Of a stretch of 26,457 nucleotides of DNA, positions 1 through 23,930 are shown piece by piece (the first letter of the stretch is position 1; every line of letters starts with the position of its first letter). Under the pieces are notes generated by a model that saw nothing but the letters and a program-made list of their open reading frames with translations, did not search any database and had not been told where the DNA came from. The stretch covers positions 1-26,457 of IMG/VR virus record IMGVR_UViG_3300027741_003569; one strand, 5' to 3'. This DNA is from a virus. Both the position numbers and the translations under genes were made by a program.

Positions 1-26
1 AAGTATTGGCCAGGCAGCAGATAACA

Positions 27-350
27 ATGATCACAGTTACTGACCGTGCCCAAACACGTATCATAGACATTTTGATAGATGAAAACAATCCTGGAGTGAT
101 GTTGAGAACATTTGTTCAGGGTGGTGGATGCAGTGGGTTCAGTTACGGATTCACGTTGGATTCAATTCAAAATGAAGATGATTGGACAATTAATTTGGAA
201 TCATTCAAACTTTTGGTGGACCCTATGAGCATGCAGTATCTTGATGGAGCCACGATTGATTACAAAGAAACCATCATGAACAATGAATTTGTGATTATCA
301 ATCCCAATGCGGTCAGTCAATGTGGTTGCGGTAGTTCATTTAGTGTTTGA
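27..350 (+). CDS. iscA: IscA/HesB-type iron-sulfur cluster carrier protein
   Basis: A-type carrier that binds an Fe-S cluster or iron and passes it to apo-proteins in the cytoplasm. From the ATG at 27 the protein has 107 residues with Cys35 in GGGCSGF and Cys99/Cys101 in QCGCG near the C-terminus. These are the three family ligands, at the same positions and total length as I recall for bacterial IscA. An in-frame TTG at 6 would add seven residues with no family support, so I prefer 27; only weak SD-like purines precede it. The gene sits just upstream of the sigma70 promoter of the DNA ligase, and its last codons overlap the -35 box. IscA/HesB-like genes are known as auxiliary genes in marine phages. 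A role in host Fe-S supply or in maturing a phage enzyme is inference. Confidence 0.88.
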   Translation: MITVTDRAQTRIIDILIDENNPGVMLRTFVQGGGCSGFSYGFTLDSIQNEDDWTINLESFKLLVDPMSMQYLDGATIDYKETIMNNEFVIINPNAVSQCGCGSSFSV

Positions 351-2546: not shown

Positions 2547-2768
2547 GTGGCAAAAGACGATATTATTGAATTAAAAGGCACAGTTGAAGAAGTGTTGCCG
2601 TCCAGTATGTTTAGATTGAGATTGGACACCAACGATCTTTTGATTTTGGCCTACATCAGTGGCAAAATGCGCAAAAACAAAATACAGATCCTATTGGGTG
2701 ATAGGGTGGATGTGGAAATGTCCCCCTATGATCTATCACGTGGTCGCATTACCTACAGACACAAATAA
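2547..2768 (+). CDS. infA: Translation initiation factor IF-1 homologue
   Basis: IF-1 is an OB-fold protein that binds the A site of the 30S subunit and helps IF-2 and IF-3 select initiator tRNA. The 73-residue product starts [19 protein letters not shown] and continues with the signature ISGKMRKN, then GDRV, and ends with [13 protein letters not shown]. This is near-canonical bacterial IF-1 over its whole length (usual length about 72), with no truncation. The start is GTG; GGGAA lies about 10 nt upstream. It follows the WavE-like gene by 34 nt on the same strand, so it is probably in the ligase transcription unit, and it is convergent with the HNH gene 21 bp downstream. A complete IF-1 on a phage genome is unusual; its use to bias host ribosomes is inference. 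Confidence 0.93.
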
Positions 2769-2789: not shown

Positions 2790-3302
2790 CTAGACCAAAT
2801 AGTTATTCCATACGGGATATGCCAAATCCCAGCCTAATTTTTTTCTCTTGTCTACCAGTTGAAAATAACTGGGTTTATAGGGTTTGCATTTGGGAACAAT
2901 TTTGCCGTTGTTGCCCTTGGCCGAGTTGCAGAAACTACAGGCACAAACACAGTTTTCAAATGAAGTGTTGCCGCCCAAACTCACGGGTAGCACATGATCC
3001 AATGTGGCAATTTTTCTATTCACAGCTTCAAAACAGTATTGACAAACATAATTGTCTCTTAAAAATACATTTTGTTTGCTGAATCTCACTGTGTGTTTTT
3101 TCTTTTGAAATTCTTTCAGGATCATCACGGCTGGAACTGGGGTGCTCCATTTTTCGCTGTGAACTATCCAATGTTCATGCCATTCCAAAACAGTAGCCTT
3201 GTCAGAAACCAAGTATCTTATTGATTCTTCCCATGCGATTATGCTCAAGGGGATAACACTAACTGGATTACCATCTGCGTTGAGTATCAGTGTTGATGAC
3301 AT
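2790..3302 (-). CDS. HNH endonuclease
   Basis: A 170-residue protein read from the ATG at 3302. An upstream extension to 3368 is in frame, but residues match the family only from MSSTLILN onward. The HNH/zinc region is complete: CQYC at 87-90, DH at 102-103 in LDHVLPVSLGG, Asn117, then CSFCNSAKG at 122-130, followed by a Pro-rich segment. These are the metal-binding and zinc-ribbon residues of HNH nucleases common in cyanobacteria and T4-like cyanophages. It is the only clear minus-strand gene here and lies between the early genes and the fibre array. A GATAAATA box 26 nt upstream on its own strand suggests independent late expression. It could be a free-standing homing-type nuclease or a DNA-processing enzyme; the sequence does not decide this. 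Confidence 0.88.
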   Translation of the reverse strand: MSSTLILNADGNPVSVIPLSIIAWEESIRYLVSDKATVLEWHEHWIVHSEKWSTPVPAVMILKEFQKKKHTVRFSKQNVFLRDNYVCQYCFEAVNRKIATLDHVLPVSLGGNTSFENCVCACSFCNSAKGNNGKIVPKCKPYKPSYFQLVDKRKKLGWDLAYPVWNNYLV

Positions 3303-5716: not shown

Positions 5717-8700
5717 ATGTCAGCACTTAATTTTCCAGCAAATCCTGTTAAAGGCACACTCTATACTGGTAACAATGGTTTAACTTATATATTTGATGGA
5801 ATAAAATGGGTGGGTTCATCGGTGATTGCTGTGGCCACTGAAACCAATGCCTTGATCAACAACGGCAATGTGGTACAGGTCACTCAAGACGGTGGTCTTC
5901 AACTGCCGCGTTACGCTTTCCCAGCTCAGCCAGGCTATCTGGGACAAGTTTTGCAATGGACCTACATCAGTGGCACTAACACATTGATTTGGGCTGATGT
6001 TAGAAGTCAAAATGCTGCAAGACAGGGATCAACAGGCAGTTTCCTAATCAGCAGCACTGGCAGTTGGGTGGCCAGTATAAACACCGACAGCAGTTTCACC
6101 ATTCCAGGTGCATTGAGAATGGGCGACAACACAGTGCAGTACAGCGCCTATCCTGGACCTCCTAGAACACTGACCAACACACTCAGTATTTTGACAGCTA
6201 CACAATCTACCAGCACCCTGTCGGGTACTTTGGTTGTGCAAGGTGGCATTGGCATTGGAGGCAACGGTTGGTTTGGAGGCAGTTTGAATGCTGACCGTTT
6301 GAACATCAAACCCGTTGCTTCGGGCACATTCGCCGTGGTGACATTGGCAGGTGGTGGTGATCAAATTCAAATACAGACCGGTTACAATACTGGAAAAAAT
6401 GTTATCACCAGTTTCAACAGCACAGCCAGTGCATATGCCTCCTTGGTCATAGCAGCTTCCACACTGACTTTTGTGACTCAAAACAGTTTGAGCAATGTGA
6501 TTCTTGGTGCTGCAGGTGTGAACATCACAGCAGGCACCACTGCCAGTTCTGCCTATACTGGTGCTCTCACAGTGGCGGGCGGAGTGGGCATAGGCGGCAG
6601 CATGTATGCAGTCAACACCAGCTATGTGGCTGGAGCTCAATTGGTGACCACTGCCACCATAAGACTGTTTGCTGCCACCAGCATAAGAGCTGGCACAGAC
6701 ACAGCCGTCACTACCAGCACAGGAAGTTTGACAATATGGAACACTAGTACCTTGCAGTCTGTGACAGGGCGGGGTGCCAGCACCAATGCTGTGATATCAA
6801 TTACCAACACCACATCCAGTACTGGCACCAGTTCAGGAGCATTGACCATAGCTGGCGGATTGGGCATTGGTAGCAACTTGTATGTGGCCGATTATGCGTA
6901 TGTGGCCAATGCATTGGTTGTGACCACCAGCACACTGGCAGGATATTTTGGTGTGGGCACTGACACTGCCATAAGCACAGCATCAGGAATTGTAACAATT
7001 TGGAACACCAGCACACTACAGACTGTGACTGGTCGAGGAGCCACAACCAATAATGCCATTGCCGTTACCAATGCCACTGTCAGCACTGGTACCAACACAG
7101 GAGCACTCACAGTGACTGGTGGAGTGGGTATTGGCGGGTCTTTGGCCATTGGCAGCAGTTTGACGGTGTCCACTGCTGCGTATGTTGCTGGTGCCCAAGT
7201 ATTGACCACAGCCACTGTATATTCCAAAATTGTGGCAGGCACCGACCTATCAATAAACACTGCCACAGGCAATGTTGTGATAGCCACAACCAGCACTCTG
7301 CAGTCAGTGACAACAAGAGGAGCCACAACCAATAATGCCATTGCCGTTACCAATGCCACTGTCAGCACTGGTACCAACACAGGAGCACTCACAGTGACTG
7401 GTGGAGTGGGTATTGGTGGCAATGTGTATGTTGGCGGGACGATTACTGCTACAAACTTTTATATCAATGGAAGTCCGGTGGTCACTGCTGCCTCAGCAGG
7501 CGGAGTTGTCACACTAAATGCTGTATCAGGCACTGTCACAATTGTGCAAGGTACAGACACTGTGATCAGCACCACTGGCAGTTCAATCACCGTGTCCAAC
7601 AACAGCAATTTGCAGTCTGTGACCAATAGGGGGTCTTTGACCTCCAATCAAGTTCGCATAAGCAACCCCGTATCCAGCACTAGTACTATTACAGGTGCAT
7701 TGACAGTTGCGGGCGGTGTAGGTGTTGGTGGCGACTTAAATGTTGGTGGCGTAATTACTGCAACCAATGTGTATGTTAATGGATATGCAGTTAGTACCAG
7801 TACTGGCGGAGTTACTGCTAGTGGTACTGGTACCACTACTACATTTGTGATATCAAACGTCACAGCAAGTGCTGGAACAAATTCAGGTGCATTGCAAGTA
7901 TCGGGTGGCACAGGCATTGGTGGTAATTTATATGTTGGTAATACACTAACCGTATTAAGCACATTGTCTAGTACTAGTTCAGTATCACAAAACGCATTAT
8001 ATGTAGCTGGCGGGTTGGGTGTTGGATCATCATTATATGTCACAGGCCCAGCAGTATTCAACAACAATGTTACATTCTCTGGTACTACAACTTATGTATT
8101 AAGTACTAACACAGTGTATACTGATAATATTATTGAATTGCACTATGCCAATACATGGGCAGTAAATGATAGCAAAGATATTGGTCTGCGTTTCCATTAT
8201 TATGATACTGCCGATCGTAATGCATTCTTTGGCCGCGACAATGCCACTGGATATTTAGAATGGTTAGTAAATTCTAGTCCAGATAACACTAATAATGTAA
8301 CTGGTACCAACGGAACATTTAGATTAGGCAGTATTATTTTAACTGATACTACTGCATCAAATACCACAGCAACTGGTGCATTAACTGTTGTGGGAGGTGT
8401 GGGCGTTGGCGGCAGCTTATATGTTGGTGGTGTAATTACCGCAACCAATGTCTATGTTAATGGATATGCAGTCAGTACTAGTACATTTAACACAGGAACA
8501 TTAGTAGCACAGGCAGTAAGTGCCACATCATTAGTTTCTGGAACCTGGACATTTACAGTTAGTTCAACTGGATCTGTTACTTTGAATGGAACCCCATTTG
8601 TCAGTGGCAACACAGCAGCCAGCGGCACTGGAACTACCACAACGTTTGTGATATCAAATGCCACAGTAAGTACTGGAACAAACTCGGGTGCATTACAAGT

Positions 8701-9304
8701 AGTGGGCGGTGTGGGCATTGGTGGTAATTTAACAGTTGGCGGAACAGTTACTGGTGGTGGTGTAAGAACTACTACAACCAGCACAGCACCCGCAAATCCC
8801 ACAGTAGGTGATATTTGGTACTATACCGCCAGTGATGTAATATATCGTTATACCAATGACGGATCTACTACAACTAATTTTTGGTTAGACATTACTGGAC
8901 CTACATACTCGTTAACAACCAACACCAGTTTGGTGATAGGTGTTGCACAACAAGGAAATACTCAAACTGTTGCCACCAGCGTGGGCTATTTGGGATTACC
9001 GCAAAATTCTCAAACAGGCACATACACATTGTCTTATCTAGACCAAGGCGGGCATGTTTATCTCACAGGATCCACAGCCACTATATTGATTCCTGCCAAC
9101 ACAGTGACCAGTTTTGCCATTGGCACTACTATAGCCTTTATTGCCAGTGCCAACACAACAGGCACAATTAGAATTCAAACTGATAATTTGTATTTAGGAG
9201 GCAGTGGCACCACAGGCACTAGAACTTTGTCGCAATACGGCATGGCCACAGTGATCAAAGTTACCACAAACACATGGTTCATTAACGGAACAGGACTGAC
9301 TTAA
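5717..9304 (+). CDS. Long modular tail fibre protein
   Basis: A 1195-residue protein. The N-terminal module (FPANPVKGTLYTGNNGLTY...W) is the kind found at the start of many fibre proteins. The body has ten variants of GALTVxGGVGIGGxLxVGG, often followed by ITATNxYVNG. Four contain upstream units TDTAxSTxxGxxTIWNTSTLQSVTxRG with a period of about 94 residues. Around residues 790-880 sits a globular insert with DNIIELHYANTW and KDIGLRFHYY. The C-terminus (about 1090-1195: GHVYLTGSTATILIP... WFINGTGL) resembles fibre-tip domains. The repeats probably make an elongated trimeric beta shaft, as known for such fibres. Codon use changes around nucleotide 7740 from TTG/CTG-rich to TTA-rich leucines, suggesting mosaic origin. 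Late box and AGGA site precede it; the next gene starts one base after the stop. Confidence 0.85.
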   Translation: MSALNFPANPVKGTLYTGNNGLTYIFDGIKWVGSSVIAVATETNALINNGNVVQVTQDGGLQLPRYAFPAQPGYLGQVLQWTYISGTNTLIWADVRSQNAARQGSTGSFLISSTGSWVASINTDSSFTIPGALRMGDNTVQYSAYPGPPRTLTNTLSILTATQSTSTLSGTLVVQGGIGIGGNGWFGGSLNADRLNIKPVASGTFAVVTLAGGGDQIQIQTGYNTGKNVITSFNSTASAYASLVIAASTLTFVTQNSLSNVILGAAGVNITAGTTASSAYTGALTVAGGVGIGGSMYAVNTSYVAGAQLVTTATIRLFAATSIRAGTDTAVTTSTGSLTIWNTSTLQSVTGRGASTNAVISITNTTSSTGTSSGALTIAGGLGIGSNLYVADYAYVANALVVTTSTLAGYFGVGTDTAISTASGIVTIWNTSTLQTVTGRGATTNNAIAVTNATVSTGTNTGALTVTGGVGIGGSLAIGSSLTVSTAAYVAGAQVLTTATVYSKIVAGTDLSINTATGNVVIATTSTLQSVTTRGATTNNAIAVTNATVSTGTNTGALTVTGGVGIGGNVYVGGTITATNFYINGSPVVTAASAGGVVTLNAVSGTVTIVQGTDTVISTTGSSITVSNNSNLQSVTNRGSLTSNQVRISNPVSSTSTITGALTVAGGVGVGGDLNVGGVITATNVYVNGYAVSTSTGGVTASGTGTTTTFVISNVTASAGTNSGALQVSGGTGIGGNLYVGNTLTVLSTLSSTSSVSQNALYVAGGLGVGSSLYVTGPAVFNNNVTFSGTTTYVLSTNTVYTDNIIELHYANTWAVNDSKDIGLRFHYYDTADRNAFFGRDNATGYLEWLVNSSPDNTNNVTGTNGTFRLGSIILTDTTASNTTATGALTVVGGVGVGGSLYVGGVITATNVYVNGYAVSTSTFNTGTLVAQAVSATSLVSGTWTFTVSSTGSVTLNGTPFVSGNTAASGTGTTTTFVISNATVSTGTNSGALQVVGGVGIGGNLTVGGTVTGGGVRTTTTSTAPANPTVGDIWYYTASDVIYRYTNDGSTTTNFWLDITGPTYSLTTNTSLVIGVAQQGNTQTVATSVGYLGLPQNSQTGTYTLSYLDQGGHVYLTGSTATILIPANTVTSFAIGTTIAFIASANTTGTIRIQTDNLYLGGSGTTGTRTLSQYGMATVIKVTTNTWFINGTGLT
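7035..7134 (+). repeat. 100-bp exact direct repeat, copy 1
   Basis: Identical base for base to 7317-7416, with an offset of 282 bp (94 codons), inside the long fibre gene. It encodes the end of an LQSVTxRG unit plus the next GALTVTGGVGIG motif, so it marks a recent in-frame module duplication or homogenisation. Confidence 0.93.
7317..7416 (+). repeat. 100-bp exact direct repeat, copy 2
   Basis: Second copy of the block at 7035-7134. Sequence diverges immediately after it (TTGGTGG versus TTGGCGG), so the identical tract is sharply bounded. Confidence 0.93.
7770..7858 (+). repeat. 89-bp block shared with a second fibre gene
   Basis: Identical to 10978-11066 in the fibre gene that starts at 10044. 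It encodes YVNGYAVSTSTGG and the Thr-rich TFVIS linker. Identity between two separate genes indicates recent exchange or duplication. Confidence 0.92.
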
Positions 9305-10014: not shown

Positions 10015-10024
10015 TATAAATACT
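10015..10024 (+). promoter_or_regulatory. Perfect T4-like late promoter
   Basis: TATAAATACT: all eight positions of the T4 late consensus plus the following CT. It lies 21 nt before the ATG at 10044, immediately after the lectin-gene stop. This is the best late box in the window. Confidence 0.82.
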
Positions 10025-10043: not shown

Positions 10044-11522
10044 ATGTCCTTTCCCCTTTCGCCCACTAATAATCAGCAAGCTACCGTCAACGGTATTACT
10101 TATTCTTACAGTACTGCCGCAGGTGCTTGGACTAGAGTATCCTCAACCGCCATATTGGTTAATACTGGTTCATCATTAGTTTCTGGAACTTGGACTTTTG
10201 CACTTAGTTCCACTGGTTCAGTTACTTTAAACGGATCGCCATTTGTTAGTGGAAGTGGAACATCAGCCAGCGGCACAGGAACCACCACAACATTTGTGAT
10301 ATCAAATGTCACCGCAAGCACTGGAACAAATTCAGGCGCATTGCAAGTAGCAGGTGGTGTGGGCATTGGTGGTAATTTAACAGTTGGCGGAACAGTTACT
10401 GGTGGCGGAGTGAGAACCACTACCACTAGCACAGTTCCTTCGAATGCCGCGGTGGGAGATCTATGGTACAACACTTCCAATGATGTGATTTATAGATACA
10501 CCTACGACGGTACTAATTATTATTGGATTGATACAAATGGTCCTAACAATGGATTTTTTGGATTGATTGCTGGTACAGATATTGCAGTTGATTTAGTGAC
10601 TATTTCAAACATCAGTACATTACAGTCAGTGACTAGTAGGGGTGGTTCAACATCTGCTGCCATTTCAATTACCAATACTTCATCAAGCACCAGTACCACA
10701 ACGGGTGCCTTGGTGATCACAGGCGGAGTGGGCATAGGCAGCAACTTGTATGTGAGCGGTGCAATTACTGCAACCAATATGTATGTGAGCGGTGCAATTA
10801 CTGCAACCAATATGTATGTGAGCGGTGCAATTACTGCAACCAATATGTATGTGAGCGGTGCAATTACTGCAACCAATATGTATGTGAGCGGTGCAATTAC
10901 TGCAACCAATATGTATGTGAGCGGTGCAATTACTGCAACCAATATGTATGTGAGCGGTGCAATTACTGCAACCAATATGTATGTTAATGGATATGCAGTT
11001 AGTACCAGTACTGGCGGAGTTACTGCTAGTGGTACTGGTACCACTACTACATTTGTGATATCAAACAGTACTCAAAGCACTGGTACCAACACAGGCGCTC
11101 TCACAGTGAGTGGTGGCGTTGGTGTTGCAGGCAATTTGGTAGTGGGCGGCATCACCATATTGCAGCAGGCCCAAGAAGTCATGGTGCCTGTCAACAGTCC
11201 TGGAGTCAATCCTACATTGAATTTCAATCAAGGCGCAGTATTTTATGTGACCAACATGACCAGCAATTTCACAGCCACCTATATCAATGTGCCTACCAGT
11301 GCAAACTATGTGTATGCCACCACATTGATATTGGCACAAACCGCGACCAATGCCTACACAGTGGCCAATGTCAGAGTGAATGGCACTGCTCAAACCATAC
11401 GATGGTTGGGTGGCAGCACTGCCACAGTCACTGCCAATAGAACAGATGTGATCAGCGTGACCCTCGTGGCCACTGGTACCAATGCATATACAGTTTTGGC
11501 CAGTGGTGGTGAATACTATTAA
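10044..11522 (+). CDS. Tail fibre protein with 11-residue tandem repeats
   Basis: A 492-residue protein. Its N-terminus (FPLSPTNNQQATVNGITYSYS...W) is paralogous to that of the gene at 13221. The body has three GALxVxGGVGIG motifs and one LQSVTSRG unit. Residues about 236-312 are seven perfect copies of the 11-mer YVSGAITATNM. The C-terminal domain (about 390-492: GAVFYVTNMTSNFTATYINVP ... WLGGS ... VLASGGEYY) resembles fibre tips in environmental T4-like phages. Two segments are identical or nearly so to the gene at 5717. A perfect late promoter precedes it, but the ribosome binding site is weak (AAAGAGA at 10029-10033). It probably forms a second fibre of the same class with a different tip; receptor unknown. 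Confidence 0.82.
   Translation: MSFPLSPTNNQQATVNGITYSYSTAAGAWTRVSSTAILVNTGSSLVSGTWTFALSSTGSVTLNGSPFVSGSGTSASGTGTTTTFVISNVTASTGTNSGALQVAGGVGIGGNLTVGGTVTGGGVRTTTTSTVPSNAAVGDLWYNTSNDVIYRYTYDGTNYYWIDTNGPNNGFFGLIAGTDIAVDLVTISNISTLQSVTSRGGSTSAAISITNTSSSTSTTTGALVITGGVGIGSNLYVSGAITATNMYVSGAITATNMYVSGAITATNMYVSGAITATNMYVSGAITATNMYVSGAITATNMYVSGAITATNMYVNGYAVSTSTGGVTASGTGTTTTFVISNSTQSTGTNTGALTVSGGVGVAGNLVVGGITILQQAQEVMVPVNSPGVNPTLNFNQGAVFYVTNMTSNFTATYINVPTSANYVYATTLILAQTATNAYTVANVRVNGTAQTIRWLGGSTATVTANRTDVISVTLVATGTNAYTVLASGGEYY
10356..10405 (+). repeat. 50-bp block identical to 8708-8757
   Basis: Encodes GVGIGGNLTVGGTVTGG and matches the long fibre gene exactly over 50 bp, inside a longer similar stretch. 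The offset to the partner (1648 bp) differs from that of the 89-bp block, so the two exchanges are not one simple duplication. Confidence 0.85.
10749..10979 (+). repeat. Seven perfect 33-bp tandem repeats in a fibre gene
   Basis: The 33-bp unit begins TATGTGAGCGG and ends CCAATATG. It occurs seven times head to tail (231 bp) with no base difference, encoding YVSGAITATNM x7. The unit is 11 codons, so gain or loss keeps the frame. The related single-copy module ITATNxYVNG occurs elsewhere in the fibre genes, which suggests that this array arose from one such module by slippage or unequal recombination. Confidence 0.96.
10978..11066 (+). repeat. 89-bp block shared with the long fibre gene, copy 2
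   Basis: Identical to 7770-7858. It begins at the end of the last 33-bp repeat, so the tandem array lies directly beside a recombined segment. Confidence 0.92.
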
Positions 11523-11533
11523 GATACTACATA

Positions 11534-13156
11534 ATGCCTAGATATAATAGTTTTACATCGCAACTTCTGGGAGGCAAGATATCATTGAGTATTGGTGACC
11601 AGGCAGTTCCCACAGGAGTCCAATTACTAATAGTGGCTGCTGGCGGCGCTGGTGGCGGTAATGGCACTTGCAGCCGTTTCGGTGGTGGCGGCGGAGCTGG
11701 TGGATTATTGTATTATGCCAATGCAGCATGCGGTGGAAAAACTCCCAATGGTACTGCAATAGCAATTTCTACAACGACGATTTATTCAATTTCAGTAGGT
11801 ACAAGCAGTGGTGCAAGCAGTGCAGCATTTGGATTTACTGCGTACGGTGGCGGGTATGGAGCAACTGCTGGGTATGACTCCGATCCCAGCGGCGGCGGCT
11901 CTGGCGGCGGCGGCGTGCTTCAATCTGTAGGCCTTTGTTATGGGAACAATGGCGGTAATGGTACCGCAGGTCAAGGCAACGCAGGTGGATCTTCACCTGG
12001 ATTTGGGTCCAGCGGCAGCGGCGCAGGCGGCGGTGGCGCCAGCACAGTTGGGGGTTCTGTTGGCACTAACGGTGGTGTTGGCGGTAATGGCGGTGCTGGA
12101 TATACCATGTCAATTACAGGGTCAGCTGTGGGCTATGCAGGCGGCGGCGGTGGCGGCGTTCAAGTCAACGGGCCTTCTCCCGGCACGGCTACACATGGTG
12201 GCGGCCAAGGCGGGTCATATCCTAGTGTTTGTGTATATAGTGGCACATCTAATACTGGAGGCGGTGGCGGTGGTGGCGGAGTAGGCCAGTCTGGCGCTTC
12301 TGGAGGTTCGGGAGTTGTAGTATTAGTCTATCCATCATGCATTCCTAATATTACTTATATGAGTGGATCAACATTGGTGGCCAACGGTACTACAGCACCC
12401 AGCATACCCACACCCTGCACAGTAAATAAGGCGGGTTACAAAATATATAAATTTACAGCAGGATCTGGTTCAATAGGTATTGGTTACACTGTAATAGCCT
12501 CGCCCTCATTGATCTCAGGTGCCACTAATAGTGGCGCAAATATCACAAGTTTGGCATACCTAGCAACGATCCCTGCCAATACCCTATTGTTGGCTCACTT
12601 TGGTATTGAAATGAACAGCACTACACAAGGTAACATCACTTCAGTTACTGGCGGCGGGCTTACATGGACCAAATTGACCAGTGTTAATTTTGGATCTTCT
12701 TCTCCAGGTCAAGCCGCTCATCTTTGGTATGCCATCACCACCAATGCTCAATCAGCTTTTACTGTGTCTTGGACTAATAGTACATCATACGATGACATGG
12801 TTGTAGCACTCAGCGCTTGGAGTGGAGTAAAAACTGCTAGCCCATTTGTGGGCAGTGCAGTAACCTCCTTTAGTGTTAGCAGTGTTACACCAAGTTTGAC
12901 ACTCAATAGTTCATCCCAAGCAGGTACTACTCATGTTGTATGGGCTGCTAGTGCTGAAAGTGCCGGCACATCGCCCAATTTATCTTTTAGCGGTTCTGGA
13001 GCAACACAGGTGGCTTATCCAGGCACTAGTGCCAAAGTAAAGTATGAATACGGTTATCTAGGATATAAACAGCAGACCCTTGCAGGTAGTTACTCTTATA
13101 CTGCTGCGGCCAGCGTGCCGCATACGGCAATTGGGGTAATATTAAATCCTGCTTAA
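11534..13156 (+). CDS. Glycine-rich tail adhesin
   Basis: A 540-residue protein. After a short N-terminus and a VQLLIVAAGG strand, residues about 32-270 are glycine-rich with many GGGG runs and scattered Cys and aromatic residues. This matches the glycine-rich domain of phage adhesins and fibre tips, where polyglycine helices pack and exposed loops bind the receptor. The C-terminal half (about 318-540) is a non-glycine beta-rich domain with TSVTGGGLTWTKL and AWSGV segments. It begins 11 nt after the upstream stop without a strong ribosome binding site, so it probably shares the late transcript of the repeat fibre. Architecture suggests the receptor-binding partner of that fibre. Leucine and glycine codons look AT-richer than those of the genes from 13221 on. 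Confidence 0.72.
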   Translation: MPRYNSFTSQLLGGKISLSIGDQAVPTGVQLLIVAAGGAGGGNGTCSRFGGGGGAGGLLYYANAACGGKTPNGTAIAISTTTIYSISVGTSSGASSAAFGFTAYGGGYGATAGYDSDPSGGGSGGGGVLQSVGLCYGNNGGNGTAGQGNAGGSSPGFGSSGSGAGGGGASTVGGSVGTNGGVGGNGGAGYTMSITGSAVGYAGGGGGGVQVNGPSPGTATHGGGQGGSYPSVCVYSGTSNTGGGGGGGGVGQSGASGGSGVVVLVYPSCIPNITYMSGSTLVANGTTAPSIPTPCTVNKAGYKIYKFTAGSGSIGIGYTVIASPSLISGATNSGANITSLAYLATIPANTLLLAHFGIEMNSTTQGNITSVTGGGLTWTKLTSVNFGSSSPGQAAHLWYAITTNAQSAFTVSWTNSTSYDDMVVALSAWSGVKTASPFVGSAVTSFSVSSVTPSLTLNSSSQAGTTHVVWAASAESAGTSPNLSFSGSGATQVAYPGTSAKVKYEYGYLGYKQQTLAGSYSYTAAASVPHTAIGVILNPA

Positions 13157-13220: not shown

Positions 13221-13772
13221 ATGTCATTCCCCGCATCACCCATAGACGGCCAACAGTCCATTATCAATGGCATCAAGTACAGTTACAGCACTGGCACTAC
13301 GGCTTGGACCAGACTCAGCACTGCCACAGTGAGTGTGAGCGGTACAGCTGATGTTTTTGCCATCACCAACACTGCCACAGCAACATCCCCCGTCACGGGC
13401 GCATTGAGAGTGGCTGGCGGAGCGGGCATAGTGGGCAATCTCAATGTGGGTGGCATAATCAGTGCCACCAATGTGTTGATAAATGGAACACCCTTGTTGC
13501 CCACTGTGATACAAAACTTCACATCAGGCGCCAATTCCTCCACTTTTGTGGTGTCAGGCGGTTATGTTCAAGGATATGTTCAAGTGTTTGTGAATGGACT
13601 GTTGCTGCCACCTTCAGACTACACAGCCAGCAACGGCACTTCAATCACCTTGAACGAAGCTAGAAATTTGAACGATGCAGTCACAGTGATCAGCACACCC
13701 TACGGCATCTTGTCCACTCCAACGCCCAGCAATGCATTTGCCATTGCAATGGGTGTGGCCCTGGGCATTTGA
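13221..13772 (+). CDS. Short fibre-like virion protein
   Basis: A 183-residue protein with the same N-terminal module as the gene at 10044 (FPASPIDGQQSIINGIKYSYS...W) and a single GALRVAGGAGIVGNLNVGG motif followed by ISATNVLINGTP. The C-terminal domain carries GYVQVFVNGLLLPPSDYTASNG, a segment often seen at the end of short phage fibre or appendage proteins. It looks like a minimal version of the long fibres: attachment module, one shaft repeat and a different tip. No clear Shine-Dalgarno is present before the ATG, but a late box is. The partner is unknown. Confidence 0.75.
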   Translation: MSFPASPIDGQQSIINGIKYSYSTGTTAWTRLSTATVSVSGTADVFAITNTATATSPVTGALRVAGGAGIVGNLNVGGIISATNVLINGTPLLPTVIQNFTSGANSSTFVVSGGYVQGYVQVFVNGLLLPPSDYTASNGTSITLNEARNLNDAVTVISTPYGILSTPTPSNAFAIAMGVALGI

Positions 13773-13804: not shown

Positions 13805-16800
13805 ATGGCCAAACAACTACAAAGAACCTATGTTTTTACTCCAGGTGGTGCTGGTTCTGGAACCATACAGATTCCTGGCAAGTTTGATCTCAGTCAACTG
13901 TTGATCATTACCAATGTGACAAAAAATCAAATGGTCTACAATTTTGCAGATCTCACTTATGTGGGCACCACTGTTGCATTCAGTAGAGCCAATACCACAC
14001 AATTTCCACAGGCTTTGGGCATGAGTGATGGAGTCACCACCATCACTTTGGGTGTGTCCACGCAGGGCATGAGCAGTGGGGACATACTGCAGATTTTCAC
14101 AGAGAGAACCGACCAAGCCATACTCACTAGAGCCATGGGTGCTGGCACAGATGCATGGGAAAGAGCCAGAACCTCCAACCCCAAGAGCATGATTGATGCG
14201 GACTTTGAATATGGTCTTCAACCCACCAAATGGCAGCAGATCAGTGCAGTTCGAGGCTATGCAGGCATATTCGAAGTACCAGGTAGCGATCTATCAGTGA
14301 CCACCATAACCACTGATGCCAATTATTTGAGGCCCAATGATCTCACAGCAGAAAGTCTTATCACTGTTAATACACAAATTCCTCACAATCTCACAACAGG
14401 TACTGCAATCACAGTAAGTACTCTAGAAAGCACAGTGCCCAGCTATGCTTTGGCACAGGGAACTTTTATTATCAACGCTGTGCCCACTAGCACGTCGCTG
14501 AACTACTATGCCAAAGGCAAGGTGGGCACTGTACAGGACTCCGTGATCAATTCCACCTACACCGTGGTGCGTCAAGGTGGATTTTACACAGGTGCTTCTA
14601 GAACAGATGTGACTTTTAGTGTACTGAGTGGCGGTACTGTAGGATCCACAGCCACCATAGCTGCCAGTTTTGCCACAGATCACGGATTTACACCAGGACA
14701 AGGTATCATGGTGGTAGTCACCAGTGACAACGGCACAAACAATCACAGTTATGCACAAGGTCCATTTTACGTCACCACAATCTCCAGTCCCACAACATTC
14801 AACTTTCTAGCTAGAAGTGCAGTGGGAGCTATCACTGCTGGTGGATCCATAACAGGTTTTGTATATGCTCGCAGTGACAGCTTTTATGTACATCGAGCCT
14901 ATGATGGAGGAGTGCAGTTGGGCACAGGTGGACCCAGTTACGGTGCCAGTGCTGTGAGACAGAGCAAAAAATACATAAGATATCAAAGTGGCAAAAGCAT
15001 CAACTACAACACAGGGCTGTTGTTGGCTCCCAACTATCAGCTGAGATTTGTCACAGCCACCAACACCACCGTGGGCAGCAGCATCATCGGCATCACGGAC
15101 TTGGAAGATCATCAGTTTCAACCCGGTGCCGTGATCAAATTGGAAAATGTAGTTTCCAGTGGTTACAACGGTGTTTACACAGTGGCCTCCATCATTGACA
15201 GCAGAACCTTTGTGGTCACTGCCACTCAGACTCTCAGCACCACCACTGCCATAATGGGAACACCCTGCTTTGTGAGTTTGATCAACTGGTACGGTAGCAT
15301 AGTGAGAGCAGGCACATTTGACGATCAAAATGGCATGTTTTGGCAGTATGATGGTCAAACTGTGGCTTTGGGTTTGAGAGTCAGTACAACTGATTTGGGA
15401 GGTTTGGCCAATATAAGTCCTGATAGTACTTACACCACAGCCACTAATGCTCGTTGGCTCACACAGTTGATTGCGGGGGATCGAGTAGTTTTACGTGGCA
15501 TGACACATCATGTTTCTAGGGTGGTCAGTGACAACAGCATGTACATCAATGGTGATTGGCGACCAGCCACCGCATCTACTGGTATTAGAATAATGAAAAC
15601 TTTGGAAAAAATCATTCCCCAAAGTCAGTGGAACATGGATCGCTGTGATGGGTCAGGATCTGTGTACAACCCCAGCGGATACAATCTTTTGGTCAACAAA
15701 ATGCAGATGGCTGGCATACAGTGGACTTGGTATGGTGCAGGTTTCATTGATTTCATGCTGAGAGGCCCTGACGGCAATTACATCACAGTGCATAGACTGA
15801 GAAACAACAACGTCAACAACGAGGCCTACATGCGTACTGGCAACATGCCTGTGAGGTATGAAGTGGTCAATGAGGGTGCAAGAACAGGCTTGGCCAGAGA
15901 CATGGGATCTTTGGACACTGTGATGACTGTGACTGATGTGACATTTTTCCCATCATCAGGCATGGTGTATGTGGACAATGAGTTGATCAGTTACACGGGA
16001 ATTACCACCAGTACCAATACTTTGAACAATTTGGTTCGTGCCACTTCTATCAATCAGTTTGTGGGCAATTCTAATAGAACGTTTCAAGCTGGTGGCGCTG
16101 TGTCGCACTATGCCAATGCCGGCACAGGAGTGCTGTTGTTTGGACAAACAGCGGCTCCCAATATCAGTCATTGGGGCAGTGCATTTTTGCAGGACGGCGG
16201 ATTTGACGAAGACCGGGGGTACTTGTTCAATTATGGTGTGACCAACGTGCAGATCAGTGTGAAAAAAACCACGCTGTTTGCCATTAGACTGGCTCCCAGT
16301 GTGAGCAATAGCATACCTGGTGATTTGGGTGCAAGAGATCTCATAAATAGAGCTCAGTTTCTTTTACAAGCTTTGGAAATTTCAGCAGGTGGATCCACCA
16401 ACGTCAACGCAGCCATTGTGATAGAGGGTGTGCTTAATCCCATAAATCATCCCACAAGTTCCAATATAACTTGGTACTCTCTTAACGGCAGTGTGGCCAG
16501 CTCGCCAGTGGCCAACGGCCAACCCAGTTTCAGTCAAGTGTCTGCTGGAGCTTCAATGACCTTTGTGAATTCAAGTCAGTCAGTGACAGGTGCTAACATT
16601 ACTTGTAGCAGCGCCGCAGCAGGTGCCACCACCCTGCAAATAACAACAGCAGGTGCTGCTGCCCAACTACAAGTGGGGGATGTTATTATACCACAGGCAT
16701 CACAAGCCACATCAATTGCAGGTGGCACATTTATACAAGCCATTAGTGGGAATTTTATAACCTTGAACAATCCGTTACTGGGCACATTGACTATTTTCAC

Positions 16801-17035
16801 CGTCAGTAGGAGTACATTTGCACTGCCGGGTGAAACCATATTTTCCTTCATTGGCAGTCAAGCAAATAGAGACGTGCTGGATCTCAGCTCTTTGAAGGAA
16901 CTGACCAACACCCCAATGGGAGGTAGAAGCTGCTATCCCAATGGACCAGATGCATTGTTTATCAATGCCTACCTCACGCAAGGCACACCAATCTATACCA
17001 ATGTGCTGTTGAGATGGGCTGAGGCACAGGCTTGA
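13805..17035 (+). CDS. Large virion structural protein (T4-like environmental phage family)
   Basis: A 1076-residue protein. Near residues 122-143 it has SNPKSMIDADFEYGLQPTKW. Around 632-690 come QMAGIQWTWYGAGFIDFM and NNNVNNEAYMRTGNMPVRYE, and the end is LRWAEAQA after a PNGPDALFINAYL segment. I associate these landmarks with a large structural protein conserved in cyanophage and pelagiphage T4-like genomes. Three internal segments (about 195-235, 297-340, 438-475) follow one pattern: H-x-F/L-xPG, then Y-x-G-x-F/Y-V and a strand ending in TTFxxxA, suggesting repeated small beta domains. AAAGGA precedes the ATG. A baseplate or baseplate-proximal fibre role is plausible but not demonstrated. 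Not a recognisable enzyme. Confidence 0.76.
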   Translation: MAKQLQRTYVFTPGGAGSGTIQIPGKFDLSQLLIITNVTKNQMVYNFADLTYVGTTVAFSRANTTQFPQALGMSDGVTTITLGVSTQGMSSGDILQIFTERTDQAILTRAMGAGTDAWERARTSNPKSMIDADFEYGLQPTKWQQISAVRGYAGIFEVPGSDLSVTTITTDANYLRPNDLTAESLITVNTQIPHNLTTGTAITVSTLESTVPSYALAQGTFIINAVPTSTSLNYYAKGKVGTVQDSVINSTYTVVRQGGFYTGASRTDVTFSVLSGGTVGSTATIAASFATDHGFTPGQGIMVVVTSDNGTNNHSYAQGPFYVTTISSPTTFNFLARSAVGAITAGGSITGFVYARSDSFYVHRAYDGGVQLGTGGPSYGASAVRQSKKYIRYQSGKSINYNTGLLLAPNYQLRFVTATNTTVGSSIIGITDLEDHQFQPGAVIKLENVVSSGYNGVYTVASIIDSRTFVVTATQTLSTTTAIMGTPCFVSLINWYGSIVRAGTFDDQNGMFWQYDGQTVALGLRVSTTDLGGLANISPDSTYTTATNARWLTQLIAGDRVVLRGMTHHVSRVVSDNSMYINGDWRPATASTGIRIMKTLEKIIPQSQWNMDRCDGSGSVYNPSGYNLLVNKMQMAGIQWTWYGAGFIDFMLRGPDGNYITVHRLRNNNVNNEAYMRTGNMPVRYEVVNEGARTGLARDMGSLDTVMTVTDVTFFPSSGMVYVDNELISYTGITTSTNTLNNLVRATSINQFVGNSNRTFQAGGAVSHYANAGTGVLLFGQTAAPNISHWGSAFLQDGGFDEDRGYLFNYGVTNVQISVKKTTLFAIRLAPSVSNSIPGDLGARDLINRAQFLLQALEISAGGSTNVNAAIVIEGVLNPINHPTSSNITWYSLNGSVASSPVANGQPSFSQVSAGASMTFVNSSQSVTGANITCSSAAAGATTLQITTAGAAAQLQVGDVIIPQASQATSIAGGTFIQAISGNFITLNNPLLGTLTIFTVSRSTFALPGETIFSFIGSQANRDVLDLSSLKELTNTPMGGRSCYPNGPDALFINAYLTQGTPIYTNVLLRWAEAQA

Positions 17036-17642: not shown

Positions 17643-19961
17643 ATGGCATATGACATTTCTTCCACTGCCACAGGGGTCACAAGATATTTAGGCACAGCAA
17701 CCCAAGCTAGACTGCGTCAATACAACGCCAGCCTAAATCGTTGGGAAAGAGTCATACCCAGCACTGCCACAGGGGTATATGCTTCAATACAACTGAGCTA
17801 TGATAAAAATGCTGGTACCAACCCAACAGCATTGAACGTATATAGAAGCAATCAACCCATTTTTGCCACTGTGACTTGGAACAGGCCAGTCACTGGGTTC
17901 AGCACTGCCAGCATGGCATTTATTGGTCCAGGCACTTGGACAGTGAGCAACAACACTGTGACTCAAGTGACCTCCAGCAAGTACACTTTTGGTTTCAATT
18001 TCACAGGTGAAATAGGACAGTTTGTGATTTCCTCCAGCACAGTCACTGCCACAGATGTGTCACCAGCAGCCAATGCTAATATTTACAGTCCAGGTTTTCC
18101 TGGAATCAATACCGACAGAGGCTATGCAGTATTGGATTTTCACACTTACACCAACGCTCATTGGATAGTGTCAGACCCTTACTTTCCAGGGGTGAATAGG
18201 TATGTGGTAAATGCCGGTTATGGCCAGACCATGGAACTTAGAATTACATTCATGAACTTCTTATATAATGTCCCTATCAGTGGCACTGGCGCTTTTAACT
18301 ACCTGTCTATTATCAGCGCTGGTTTGGGTGGCGAGTCTGATACTTTGAATTATAATATTTGGGGTATTGCTGCCAGCCCTAATAACTCTGGAACGCCAAC
18401 CGTCAGTACCAATCCAAGATATTCATTTTACACTATGAACAACTATTATTTGACTACCAATAACATTTATAGAACATATGTGGCAAGGAACCGCTACCAG
18501 GACGGTGGCTATGTGAATGAAGAGGGTCCGCCTTTTTGGGTGTCAAACATTCAGTATGGACTTGGCACTCCCACAATCCTCCTTATCACTTCCAGCGGCC
18601 AAGTCACGCAAATTGCTGTTATTTTTAGCAACTATCCCTTGGCGCTGTTGCAGTCTCTGCCCTCTACCACTACCAATGTGACCCTTTCGGGTGGTGGTAC
18701 CTTGAGCAATATTGCGGTGGACACCAGTGAACCCTACGGTCATCAATTGATCATGGACTACACATCAGCCAACACCACTACTGATTATACAGAAACTGTG
18801 ACTTTTGCACCAATGTTTGCTGTGTTTCAGGGCAATGGTGCCAATGTGACACGTAGTTACTATGCTTCTTCTTATCCCTTCACCACTTCCACTCACAGTT
18901 CAGCCAGCCAAAGTTTTTCTGTGATAAAATCACCTTTGGTGTTTCAATATTTCTCGCCAGCAGCCAGCACAGTGGTCAGCAGCGGCACTTTTGTGTTTGG
19001 TGCCAATAGAACTATTACCAGCAACGGAGGACGGTATAGACTTTGGAACAATCAAGTGGGTGGTGTCTTGATGGTAAGTGGAGAGGTGCCCTCTCCCGTT
19101 GGATCCAATGTGACCTTGACATTTAACACTATATCAATGTCCAGTACATATACCATTGAGATTGATGCAGGTGCATTCAAAGACAGTTTTGGTTTTGTGA
19201 CTCCAGCTGTGGTCTACAATTTTTTCTCTACAAGCACAGAGCCCCGTGGGGACACAGTGATAACTTCTTCACAAAATTTCACAGTGCCTGCATTTGTCTC
19301 CAAAATCAGTGTGGTAGCAGTGTCTCGGGGCGGAGCTGCTTATTACAGCCCCTATGGCGCCTCTGGTGGTACCTTGGCATGGAAAAACAACATATCTGTC
19401 AGCCCAGGTCAAGTTCTTCAGGCAGCAGTTGGCTGCAACACTAGCTATCTGCGCAGAAATGACAATGGCGGCAGCTATATCATACGAGCCTGTACAGGTT
19501 CAGCGCCCGTGGATCTTGCTGTGTGCGGTGGCAATGGTGCTTTTGGCGGAGCACGAGGCGGAGCGGGCGGAAACATGACCTACTCGGGTGCAGGCGGTGG
19601 TGGTGGTGCCGGTGGATACAACGGCGTAGGCGGCGCTGGAGGCACCAACGGTGCAAGCAGTTCACCAGGCACAGGCGGAGGCGGTGGTGGTGGGGGAAGT
19701 TATTTTGGATGTTCCGGCTACACCGGCGGCGCAGGCGGCGGTGTGGGCCTTTACGGCATAGGCGGCAACGGTGCTGGGGTGGCAACTGCAACAGCGACCT
19801 GCGGGTCTACAGGACTGCCAGGATCTGGGGGAGCTGGATCCACCTACGGCGGCGGCAGTGGAGGAAACACCTGTTCCAATGCCGGCGGCGGCGCCATTAG
19901 GATTATTTGGGGCTCAGGCAGAGCCTTCCCAAATCAATGCGTTTCCACTCAAACTCAATAG
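17643..19961 (+). CDS. Adhesin with Ig-like and glycine-rich C-terminal domain
   Basis: A 772-residue protein. The N-terminus (YNASLNRWERVIPST) leads into a beta domain ending GEIGQFVIS...NIYSPGF. A central part of unclear fold is followed by one bacterial Ig-like (SbsA/Big_5 type) domain at about 430-531. A segment QNFTVPAFVSKISVVAVSRGG comes before WKNN, then a glycine-rich domain at about 563-760 with Cys and Tyr loops, ending AIRIIWGSGRAFP. This order is shared with the next gene, so the two are paralogues. It starts 9 nt after the upstream stop, probably in the same late transcript. The glycine-rich end is the likely receptor-binding part, as in glycine-rich phage adhesins; target unknown. 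Confidence 0.74.
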   Translation: MAYDISSTATGVTRYLGTATQARLRQYNASLNRWERVIPSTATGVYASIQLSYDKNAGTNPTALNVYRSNQPIFATVTWNRPVTGFSTASMAFIGPGTWTVSNNTVTQVTSSKYTFGFNFTGEIGQFVISSSTVTATDVSPAANANIYSPGFPGINTDRGYAVLDFHTYTNAHWIVSDPYFPGVNRYVVNAGYGQTMELRITFMNFLYNVPISGTGAFNYLSIISAGLGGESDTLNYNIWGIAASPNNSGTPTVSTNPRYSFYTMNNYYLTTNNIYRTYVARNRYQDGGYVNEEGPPFWVSNIQYGLGTPTILLITSSGQVTQIAVIFSNYPLALLQSLPSTTTNVTLSGGGTLSNIAVDTSEPYGHQLIMDYTSANTTTDYTETVTFAPMFAVFQGNGANVTRSYYASSYPFTTSTHSSASQSFSVIKSPLVFQYFSPAASTVVSSGTFVFGANRTITSNGGRYRLWNNQVGGVLMVSGEVPSPVGSNVTLTFNTISMSSTYTIEIDAGAFKDSFGFVTPAVVYNFFSTSTEPRGDTVITSSQNFTVPAFVSKISVVAVSRGGAAYYSPYGASGGTLAWKNNISVSPGQVLQAAVGCNTSYLRRNDNGGSYIIRACTGSAPVDLAVCGGNGAFGGARGGAGGNMTYSGAGGGGGAGGYNGVGGAGGTNGASSSPGTGGGGGGGGSYFGCSGYTGGAGGGVGLYGIGGNGAGVATATATCGSTGLPGSGGAGSTYGGGSGGNTCSNAGGGAIRIIWGSGRAFPNQCVSTQTQ

Positions 19962-19973
19962 GCGGAACACAGC

Positions 19974-22715
19974 ATGACTTTGATACTATCCACACAGACC
20001 AATGGCACTGTGACCACACTAAACAATACGAATTTTGTATACAACGCTTCGGCCACACGTTGGGATAAATTGGTGTCAACCAGTTCCACAGTGCTTTCAG
20101 CTGTCATCACCTGCAGCTACAACGATTATCCCAACAGCTACAAACTGCCCAACTGGATCCAGGCCACCATAACTTGGAGTCATCCTGTCACATACACTAC
20201 CACTACAGGTGTCATAGTGTTCAATTATGGTACAAGTGTTGTCACCAATACTTTGTCATTAACAGTACAGCCCAATGCCAACACTTGGCAGTTTTATTTT
20301 AAATTTGAAGGTGTCCTTGGGCAGTTCAACATACCTGTTGGAGCCATCAAATCCAATGACGCGAAGGCCAGCATCAAAAACACCATTTATTCTCCTATTA
20401 TCAATGGCACTAGACAGCCCTATGCGGAAGTAGTGCCTTACACAGGCGGTACAACTTACAACTTCTATGTATATTACGTGATTGACACGTATTTTAATGG
20501 AGTTCCAAGGTATTTTTTCTTCAATACACCATACAGCAGCAGCAGGTACTTAAATTGGTGCACCACTTTCAAAAGTTTTGCCTCTACAGTGCCAACAGGC
20601 TCTAACACCGGCAACTATGACGGATCTGCTGACGTAACTCAGATTGTTTTGGTACCGGTAGGTGGTGCGGCATACGGTGTGAACACCACTGAATATTCCA
20701 ACTATCAACGAAGCGTTGCCGCCGTCAATAGCAGTAACCCTCGGTTCAATTATTTTATTCATGCAGACACCGGTGTCAACAGGATCTCCTACAGTGTGGT
20801 CGCCGCCGGCGCCTATCGAGATGACGTCTACGGCTACAATATTGCTGGATCCAAAACATGGGTGGGTGCTTTCCCCAGCGCCAACAAGGCCAACATAGTT
20901 GCCAGCAGTCCTATTGCCCTCTCTCAACAAAATGTCAGCTCAATTACTGTGAGATTTGATCACTTTTGTGCTCTTTTTAGCAGCATCCCATCCACCTCCA
21001 CCATCAGTGTGAGCTACGGCAAAGTTTACAACATTAGAGTGGACACTTCATACGAATCAGGCAATCAGTTGATCATGGACTATGTGACAGCCAACGTGAC
21101 CTATAGTTATACAGAATTCCTAGTGTTCCCCACTGATTGGGCGTACTTTCGTATTGGTGATAGCAGTGTATCTGGTTATGCTTATGAAATTCTTAGTGGT
21201 TCAATCTTAGGGTTTACCTCATCCCACGGAACGAACAGCTACAGCATGCCTGGGTTCTTTGTGGACAAAGCAACACCCGTGATCACCACCACACCAGCTA
21301 ATGGCAGCACGGGCTTTGGCGCAGGCAGCATAACCATATCCATCAACAAGTCAGTGAGCAGTCAAGCAGGCAAAACCTACAGCATCACCACCAGCGGTGG
21401 TGTGTTTGTGACCAGCACTCTCCTGCCCACTATATCCAACACTACCACCAGCAGCATAACCTTGGTGGGGTTGACCACTGCCACTACCTACACCTTGAGC
21501 ATTCAAGATCGTGCCTATTCAGACAACTACAGCAATGCATCTACAGCCACCACAGTGACATTTGTGACATCAAGCACAGGTCCTGTTATATCCACAATTC
21601 CAGTTAATGGTGCCACAGGAGTGGGGGATGGAACAATTCAGTTGTTGTTTGAGAGACCCGTAAATTCAGTCATTGGCAAATTTTATCAAATCACCACCAG
21701 CGGTGGTGTGTTTGTGACCAGCACACAGGTGCCCACAGTGACAGCCGGCACCGTGAGTTCCATCATATTGCCTAGTACTGCGACAACCAACACTGCCTAC
21801 ACACTGTCAATTGATCAAGGTGCCTATTTGGATGGTGCAGGATTTGCCACTGCGGCCAAATCAATTACATTTGTTACCACATCATCATCACCTGCGGGTC
21901 AAGCCATACTATTGACCAGTCAAAATTGGACTGTGCCCTTGTTTGTGTCATCAATCAGTGTGTTGGCGGTTTCAAAGGGTGCTGACGGCCTCGCTGCACC
22001 AAATTACTATACCTCCGGTGCTGGCGGTTATGGTGGTACTCTTGCGTGGAAAAACAACATACCTGTGAATGCAAATGATGTATTGGTGGCAACAATGGGA
22101 ACCACTACAAGATTGGGCACTGTGACCACCGCGGGCTATTACATCAATGTTGTCACAGGCGGTGCAACTCCAAACAATGTATGCGGATATGGTATTGGCG
22201 GAGCTGGCGGCTCATATGGATATTACAACACCCCCAACTACTACCCAGGCTCGGCTGGCGGTGGCGGAGCTGGCGGATACGGCGGCGCAGGCGGCAACGG
22301 CGGAGTTGGCGGCACTACGCTTGGTGCCGGCAATCGTGGCAATGCAGGAAGCAGTGGCGGCGGTGCTGGCGGAAACGGTGGTTTGACAAACTACGGTTGG
22401 GGTGGCGGCGGAGGCGGCGTGGGCATATATGGACAGGGTTCCAACGGAGCTCAAACCACTACTGGCGGCGTCGACGGTTCGGGCAGCAACTCGGGCGGAG
22501 GTGGTGGTTCATCTGGGGCCAATGGTGGCGGTGGTGGTGCTTACGGCAACGGCGGCGGTGGTTATGGCGGCGGTGGCGGCGGCGGCAATTACTTCTGTTG
22601 CGATGGCAGCTGGACCGTTGGCCCTCCTGGCAGTGGTGGACCTGCTGTGATCCGTATTGTTTACGGTGCTAACAGAAGCTTCCCCAGCACCAACGTGAGT
22701 TCAGCCACCGCCTGA
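19974..22715 (+). CDS. Paralogous adhesin with two Ig-like domains and glycine-rich C-terminus
   Basis: A 913-residue protein with the same plan as its upstream neighbour: YNASATRWDKLVSTS at the N-terminus, GVLGQFNIP...NTIYSPII, a central variable part, and an NQLIMDY segment. Unlike the neighbour it has two Ig-like domains (about 433-532 and 536-636), which share a 35-bp exact DNA repeat. Then come QNWTVPLFVSSISVLAVSKGA, WKNN and a long glycine-rich domain (about 676-889) ending VIRIVYGANRSFP. The start is 12 nt after the upstream stop with only a weak AGGCGGA site. It is the last gene of this late unit; a new late box follows. Tandem duplication followed by divergence of the middle and tip is the simplest explanation. 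Confidence 0.75.
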   Translation: MTLILSTQTNGTVTTLNNTNFVYNASATRWDKLVSTSSTVLSAVITCSYNDYPNSYKLPNWIQATITWSHPVTYTTTTGVIVFNYGTSVVTNTLSLTVQPNANTWQFYFKFEGVLGQFNIPVGAIKSNDAKASIKNTIYSPIINGTRQPYAEVVPYTGGTTYNFYVYYVIDTYFNGVPRYFFFNTPYSSSRYLNWCTTFKSFASTVPTGSNTGNYDGSADVTQIVLVPVGGAAYGVNTTEYSNYQRSVAAVNSSNPRFNYFIHADTGVNRISYSVVAAGAYRDDVYGYNIAGSKTWVGAFPSANKANIVASSPIALSQQNVSSITVRFDHFCALFSSIPSTSTISVSYGKVYNIRVDTSYESGNQLIMDYVTANVTYSYTEFLVFPTDWAYFRIGDSSVSGYAYEILSGSILGFTSSHGTNSYSMPGFFVDKATPVITTTPANGSTGFGAGSITISINKSVSSQAGKTYSITTSGGVFVTSTLLPTISNTTTSSITLVGLTTATTYTLSIQDRAYSDNYSNASTATTVTFVTSSTGPVISTIPVNGATGVGDGTIQLLFERPVNSVIGKFYQITTSGGVFVTSTQVPTVTAGTVSSIILPSTATTNTAYTLSIDQGAYLDGAGFATAAKSITFVTTSSSPAGQAILLTSQNWTVPLFVSSISVLAVSKGADGLAAPNYYTSGAGGYGGTLAWKNNIPVNANDVLVATMGTTTRLGTVTTAGYYINVVTGGATPNNVCGYGIGGAGGSYGYYNTPNYYPGSAGGGGAGGYGGAGGNGGVGGTTLGAGNRGNAGSSGGGAGGNGGLTNYGWGGGGGGVGIYGQGSNGAQTTTGGVDGSGSNSGGGGGSSGANGGGGGAYGNGGGGYGGGGGGGNYFCCDGSWTVGPPGSGGPAVIRIVYGANRSFPSTNVSSATA
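21384..21418 (+). repeat. 35-bp exact repeat between Ig-like domains, copy 1
   Basis: Identical to 21690-21724, offset 306 bp (102 codons). Encodes ITTSGGVFVTST in the first Ig-like domain; the rest of the two domains has diverged, so this tract is either conserved or homogenised. Confidence 0.87.
21690..21724 (+). repeat. 35-bp exact repeat between Ig-like domains, copy 2
   Basis: Second copy of 21384-21418, in the second Ig-like domain of the same gene. Confidence 0.87.
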
Positions 22716-23111: not shown

Positions 23112-23930
23112 ATGAAGAAGATTTTATTTACACTGCTGTTAGCAGTCGCAGGTTTGGCCAACGCATGGGATCAACGTGCTCCATTACCAGTTCAAAACTG
23201 TGCGGTTCATAGTCCTTATGGATTTGCCCAAACACAACGTACAACACAGCCAATCTGCAGAGAAGCATTTTTGGTAGCTTACGATGCACCAGTTAAAATT
23301 CCCGTATACGTGGCCTATACACTGCTGCCACAAAATGCATTAGGCTGTTTTCCACGTACCAATGCGTTTGTGGCAGATCAATCATTAAACGGCACGGGCG
23401 CTAGGCCAGATGACTATGCTGGCACAGGCTATGACAAGGGTCATGCAGCACCTGATGGCGACTTGTCATGGAGTCAACAGGTAGAGTATGAAAGCTTTTT
23501 AATGACCAATATGTATCCACAACACGGATCATTGAACAGAGGAATCTGGAAACTGTTAGAAACTTCAGTGCGTGGTTGGGCAGTTCAGAGAAATCAACCA
23601 TTTACAATTTATGTAGGCGCACTATATGGCGCAGGCAACCCCACTATAGGTAACGGTGTCATTGTTCCTCACGGATATTACAAGATTGTGATCAACAACG
23701 CCACACATGAAATTGCAGGCTGGGGATTTCCGCATACGAAACCCTATGTTAATTTAGGTAACGATTTAACCAAATTCCGTGTACCTGTAGCAGACATTAT
23801 GAAACAAGCTGGAGTACAATACAAATTCCCTAATAATGCCAAAGAGTTACAACCTGGACAGGAATGGGCTGTGAATTTTGGAGATTTGACCAAAGCCAAG
23901 AGAAACAAGTGTGGCTCCAGTGCAGATTAA
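23112..23930 (+). CDS. Exported DNA/RNA non-specific endonuclease (NUC1 type)
   Basis: A 272-residue beta-beta-alpha-metal nuclease that hydrolyses DNA and RNA. The core is complete: YDKGHAAPDGDL with catalytic His111 (DKGH in place of the commoner DRGH), Asn133 in MTNMYPQ, and LNRGIWKLLE with Asn142 and Glu150, which includes the metal-binding position. Residues 1-18 (MKKILFTLLLAVAGLANA) form a classic Sec signal peptide with an AxA site before Trp19. Four cysteines (about 30, 49, 79, 268) could pair in the periplasm. AAAGG precedes the ATG. No late box is obvious, so it may be read through from the upstream gene. Degradation of periplasmic or extracellular nucleic acid is inferred; it could instead aid nutrient recovery or act against competing phage DNA at entry. 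Confidence 0.85.
   Translation: MKKILFTLLLAVAGLANAWDQRAPLPVQNCAVHSPYGFAQTQRTTQPICREAFLVAYDAPVKIPVYVAYTLLPQNALGCFPRTNAFVADQSLNGTGARPDDYAGTGYDKGHAAPDGDLSWSQQVEYESFLMTNMYPQHGSLNRGIWKLLETSVRGWAVQRNQPFTIYVGALYGAGNPTIGNGVIVPHGYYKIVINNATHEIAGWGFPHTKPYVNLGNDLTKFRVPVADIMKQAGVQYKFPNNAKELQPGQEWAVNFGDLTKAKRNKCGSSAD

Follow-up and report, generated by a model that had tools for sequence, protein, structure and literature searches.

A perfect 33-bp tandem array in a putative phage tail-fibre gene, probably a recent expansion of one stalk unit

The fibre-like gene and its surroundings

The window analysed here is a whole uncultivated IMG/VR virus record of 26,457 bases. At 10044..11522 (+) it contains a fibre-like virion gene of 492 aa, defined by its ORF and by module and tip homology, which is made up of an N-terminal module, a repetitive stalk and a C-terminal tip. 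The N-terminal module (MSFPLSPTNNQQATVNGITYSY...W; 10044..10163, +), detected with phmmer and by a search of the virus's own genome, is common to the gene at 13221 and other virion genes, and is also found in relatives. The stalk modules are of the type TGALxVxGGVGIxGNLYVGGxITATNxYVNG and recur in a 1195-aa gene at 5717-9304, the upstream fibre gene.

The C-terminal tip (11154..11519, +; about 118 aa) is a conserved domain identified by profile search and structure prediction. Its profile recovered about 40 distinct ORFs in related contigs, where it lies 0–5 residues from the C-terminus. These ORFs span 146–1174 residues (some are cut by contig ends), indicating a constant tip on stalks of variable length. 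With AlphaFold2 the pLDDT of the tip is mostly 84–92, and a Foldseek search against BFVD matched its fold to predicted phage tail fibres, among them the tail fibre of Synechococcus phage S-H38 (E 1.7e-9, target TM 0.58). Two members of the tip alignment match phrog_9017 (tail fiber) weakly, with an E of 0.0049, and the window's own tip gave no match to this family. PDB searches by sequence and by fold returned no significant match, and there was no match for gene 10044-11522 in Pfam, in the DNA search of phage GenBank records or in the genome contigs searched; the protein search of phage GenBank records returned matches to the tip alone, all weak.

The initial annotation had called this a tail-fibre gene. 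The conserved C-terminal domain, placed on a repetitive stalk and related to annotated tail fibres, supports a fibre identity, short of proof, and on sequence and model evidence the assignment as a putative tail fibre is well supported. A head fibre is the possible alternative, as PHROGs files neighbouring families under head and packaging.

A large structural gene at 13805-17035 was assigned to phrog_5838, and the annotated relatives of its product come mostly from Synechococcus and Prochlorococcus phages, which we take to be T4-like. As for a T4-like late gene, a T4-type late-promoter-like element TATAAATA (10015..10022, +; 8/8 match) precedes the start codon of gene 10044-11522 by 29 nt. 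Versions matching at 7/8 positions are found upstream of 5717, 13221, 22778 and 25881, while 3% of random sites score 7/8 or better. These elements stand 27–33 nt before the start codons of 5717, 10044, 13221 and 22778.

Several other genes of the window were recognised. The virion-type proteins at 11534-13156, 17643-19961 and 19974-22715 have long glycine-rich segments, the first with a weak Gly_rich_2 match and the other two belonging to phrog_4474. A small protein at 2547-2768 (+) matches Pfam PF01176 (E 5e-22), the family of translation initiation factor IF-1/eIF-1A, an unusual cargo for a phage. A match to the WavE lipopolysaccharide synthesis family (1721-2512, +; PF07507, E 4e-10) adjoins an ATP-dependent DNA ligase, and an A-type iron-sulphur cluster assembly protein (PF01521) is encoded at 3-350 (+). 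The DNA/RNA non-specific endonuclease at 23112-23930 (+; PF01223, E 6e-39) has a signal-peptide-like N-terminus, so it may be exported.

An exact array and its single-copy counterparts

Within the stalk, Tandem Repeats Finder and an exact-run scan detected a tandem array at 10747..10984 (+), with a period of 33, 7.2 copies, 100% matches and no indels. Copies of the exact unit TATGTGAGCGGTGCAATTACTGCAACCAATATG begin at 10749, 10782, 10815, 10848, 10881, 10914 and 10947, which bears out the seven perfect 33-bp repeats initially annotated at 10749-10979 (+); the periodic identity overshoots this interval by 2 bp on the left and 5 bp on the right, giving a partial unit of 7 bp in total. In the reading frame of ORF 10044-11522 the seven units translate to seven identical copies of YVSGAITATNM. 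The unit length is divisible by three, the array lies inside the fibre ORF, and the number of differences among the seven units is zero, synonymous sites included.

Such a pattern is not expected by chance, because exact self-matches at a fixed lag reach 205 bp in the real gene (at lag 33) and no more than 14 bp in 60 codon-shuffled versions of it. A DNA hairpin favouring slippage found no support in the array (z-scores −0.85 to +0.57). Antisense open frames of at least 150 codons are common in the related loci (387 in 104 of 132), and the antisense ORF across the array (10520-11044) was accordingly dismissed as a shadow frame. In the two structure models, regular beta-strands are predicted every 11 residues through the array; the models disagree on strand lengths, and confidence is modest (pLDDT about 66–76).

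Elsewhere the same unit stands alone. Paralogues in the window are located at 7427, 7739, 8420 and 13443, each as a single copy, and those at 7739..7771 (+; in the 1195-aa gene) and 8420..8452 (+) both differ from the array unit at 7 of 33 positions. The nearest homologue of the gene, in related locus L001 (identity 59% in the best segment, 66% over aligned columns), also has one unit. Among 144 matching stalk modules from the window and 84 related loci, none (0 of 144) is followed by two or more units, a count that does not include the array's own module, which reads TGALVITGGVGIGSNL and was missed by the search expression. In the IMG/VR contigs searched, a set that may lack records very close to the window, neither the exact unit nor two tandem YVxGxITATN-type units had a match. 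A search for a close strain of this phage found none, the best neighbour-gene identity being 61%.

As the paralogues in the window and L001 carry one unit, the array appears to be private and recent. The very recent expansion proposed from the sequence at the outset thus agrees with both the absence of any difference, even at synonymous sites, and the single copy in paralogues and nearest homologue. Diverged relatives with an equal copy number and synonymous differences between units, which would speak for an old array, were looked for and not found; in the comparison with related phages, the homologous modules found carry one unit and the array seven.

Origin of the array and competing readings

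The array lies at a recombination junction. The segment 10961..11066 (+), beginning inside the last unit, is a near-copy of 7753-7858 in the upstream fibre gene (105 of 106 bases), and the 87 bp right of the array match that gene exactly. On the left of the array, identity to the module in the 7753-7858 region is 53 of 90. Since identity reaches 105/106 on the right compared with 53/90 on the left, the array is placed at a junction between fibre modules. In addition, the single-copy module holds a near-repeat of its own: hexapeptides of the N-x-Y-V-x-G type flank the unit on both sides, 33 bp apart. The two flanks of the array are identical at 12 of 18 bases and those of the unit at 8420 at 11 of 18, and no lag among 18–149 gives a better self-match than 33 at 7427, 7739 and 8420.

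Taken together, we consider, with a probability of about 0.78, that one beta-structured stalk step of 11 residues in a tail-fibre-like protein has recently undergone tandem expansion, specifically in this lineage. Recombination between fibre modules would first have produced a hybrid unit, and slippage during replication, or unequal recombination, would then have raised its number from one to about seven in this T4-like phage. This order is suggested because the hybrid sequence is identical in each of the seven units. The 33-bp-spaced near-repeat of the single-copy module may have served as a built-in register for slipping, and with each added copy the stalk would grow longer, the C-terminal tip staying untouched. 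The longer stalk may be under selection, through its reach, its flexibility or a change in adsorption, or it may simply be tolerated. If so, a fibre-gene expansion has been caught before its copies diverged, and its origin is unusually readable: the likely seed can still be seen in a module that has an 11-residue register built in, and the array lies at a junction between recombining fibre paralogues.

Length change of this kind was also found in related loci. In about 1.4 Mb of these loci, the period is divisible by three in 389 of the 392 tandem arrays whose period is at least 9, as expected if the reading frame filters such changes. Two relatives, L021 and L022, share 99.64% identity across 20 kb; the sole indel of at least 9 bp between them is one in-frame 36-bp unit (2 versus 3 exact copies), situated in a long virion ORF within a collagen-like array (L021 2468-2589; L022 4112-4269). 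At about 86 and 122 bp, the exact runs there fit within single reads, and this one-unit difference indicates that copy number varies in the fibre family. Thus the initial suggestion that copy number can change fibre length in frame without breaking the tip gains from the conserved C-terminal tip carried on stalks of very different length, and from the one-unit difference between 99.6%-identical relatives, but the latter lies in a different array. A 34-bp difference between L082 and L084 was set aside, being located at a gene end outside arrays.

The same observations can be read in a stronger way, with the array as a selected length switch that varies in the population, in which copy number often changes, with differences among variants in adsorption or host range, as in a contingency locus. 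Besides the one-unit difference of L021/L022 and the conserved tip on variable stalks, there is precedent in the in-frame tail-fibre duplications of T4, OP1 and EfV12-phi1 (PMC6365445, PMC2248197), but the perfect identity of the units fits one neutral expansion too, and we regard such a switch as unlikely. A related and still more tentative idea is that the array serves a lytic phage as a length-tuning locus with a short unit, and that the 33-bp stalk register would let copy number slip often; the population would then hold many fibre lengths, reaching different hosts or surface layers.

The recent expansion could also be overstated by the assembly, if the assembler over-walked a 33-bp loop or collapsed a longer array and the true number of units differs. 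The record is an uncultivated IMG/VR contig, and the 238-bp array exceeds a typical short read, so the number seven may be the assembler's estimate. Moreover, exact runs of this length are absent from the related loci: with units of at least 24 bp, the next longest exact run there has 3.4 copies, which makes the array of 7.2 copies an outlier. However, relatives do have real short exact arrays, and short-read assemblers collapse repeats more commonly than they expand them. Some true tandem repetition must exist in any case, because a loop requires at least two real perfect units, and an artefact is judged quite improbable. Least probable is an old functional array with a copy number fixed by structure and units kept identical through continual gene conversion: conversion likewise yields perfect homogeneity and paralogous fibre segments here do exchange DNA (105/106 bp), but every homologous or paralogous module found carries a single unit, leaving no sign of an old array.

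Comparison with known fibre duplications

The array is a clear further example of a change already known in phages T4 (gp37), OP1 and EfV12-phi1, rather than a new system. In the T4 gp37 adhesin, in-frame duplication of a small domain is reported to expand the host range (Tetart et al. 1996, cited in PMC6365445 and PMC2248197). The two cases share the T4-like type of phage and the in-frame copying of a short piece of a fibre; however, T4 duplicates the adhesin domain itself, whereas the seven units of the window are in the stalk, before a separate tip. By analogy, it is plausible that a longer stalk would alter host range.

Domain duplications in the tail fibres of Xanthomonas phages OP1, Xp10 and Xop411 were reported, with a changed host range in OP1 (PMC2248197). 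These phages also have tandem tail-fibre segments whose copy pattern differs among relatives, and, like the array of the window, they show short direct repeats at the borders of the segments. Their duplicated domains are larger, belong to the N-terminal part, reach up to three copies and come with host-range data. In Enterococcus phage EfV12-phi1, 1.8-kb in-frame tail-fibre duplications arose in all four coevolution replicates, and copy number was variable in the population (PMC6365445). Both cases place in-frame tandem copies upstream of a predicted binding domain or tip, but the EfV12-phi1 unit is 1.8 kb and came from laboratory coevolution, while that of the window is 33 bp on a natural contig.

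Collagen-like (G-x-y) repeats of phage fibres, such as those of L021 and L022, are likewise in-frame stalk repeats of variable number, and differ in sequence type from the unit of the window, which is the beta-type YVSGAITATNM. L001, with its single copy of this unit, has an exact in-frame array of its own (2862-3083; 81 bp × 2.7) elsewhere in the homologous ORF.
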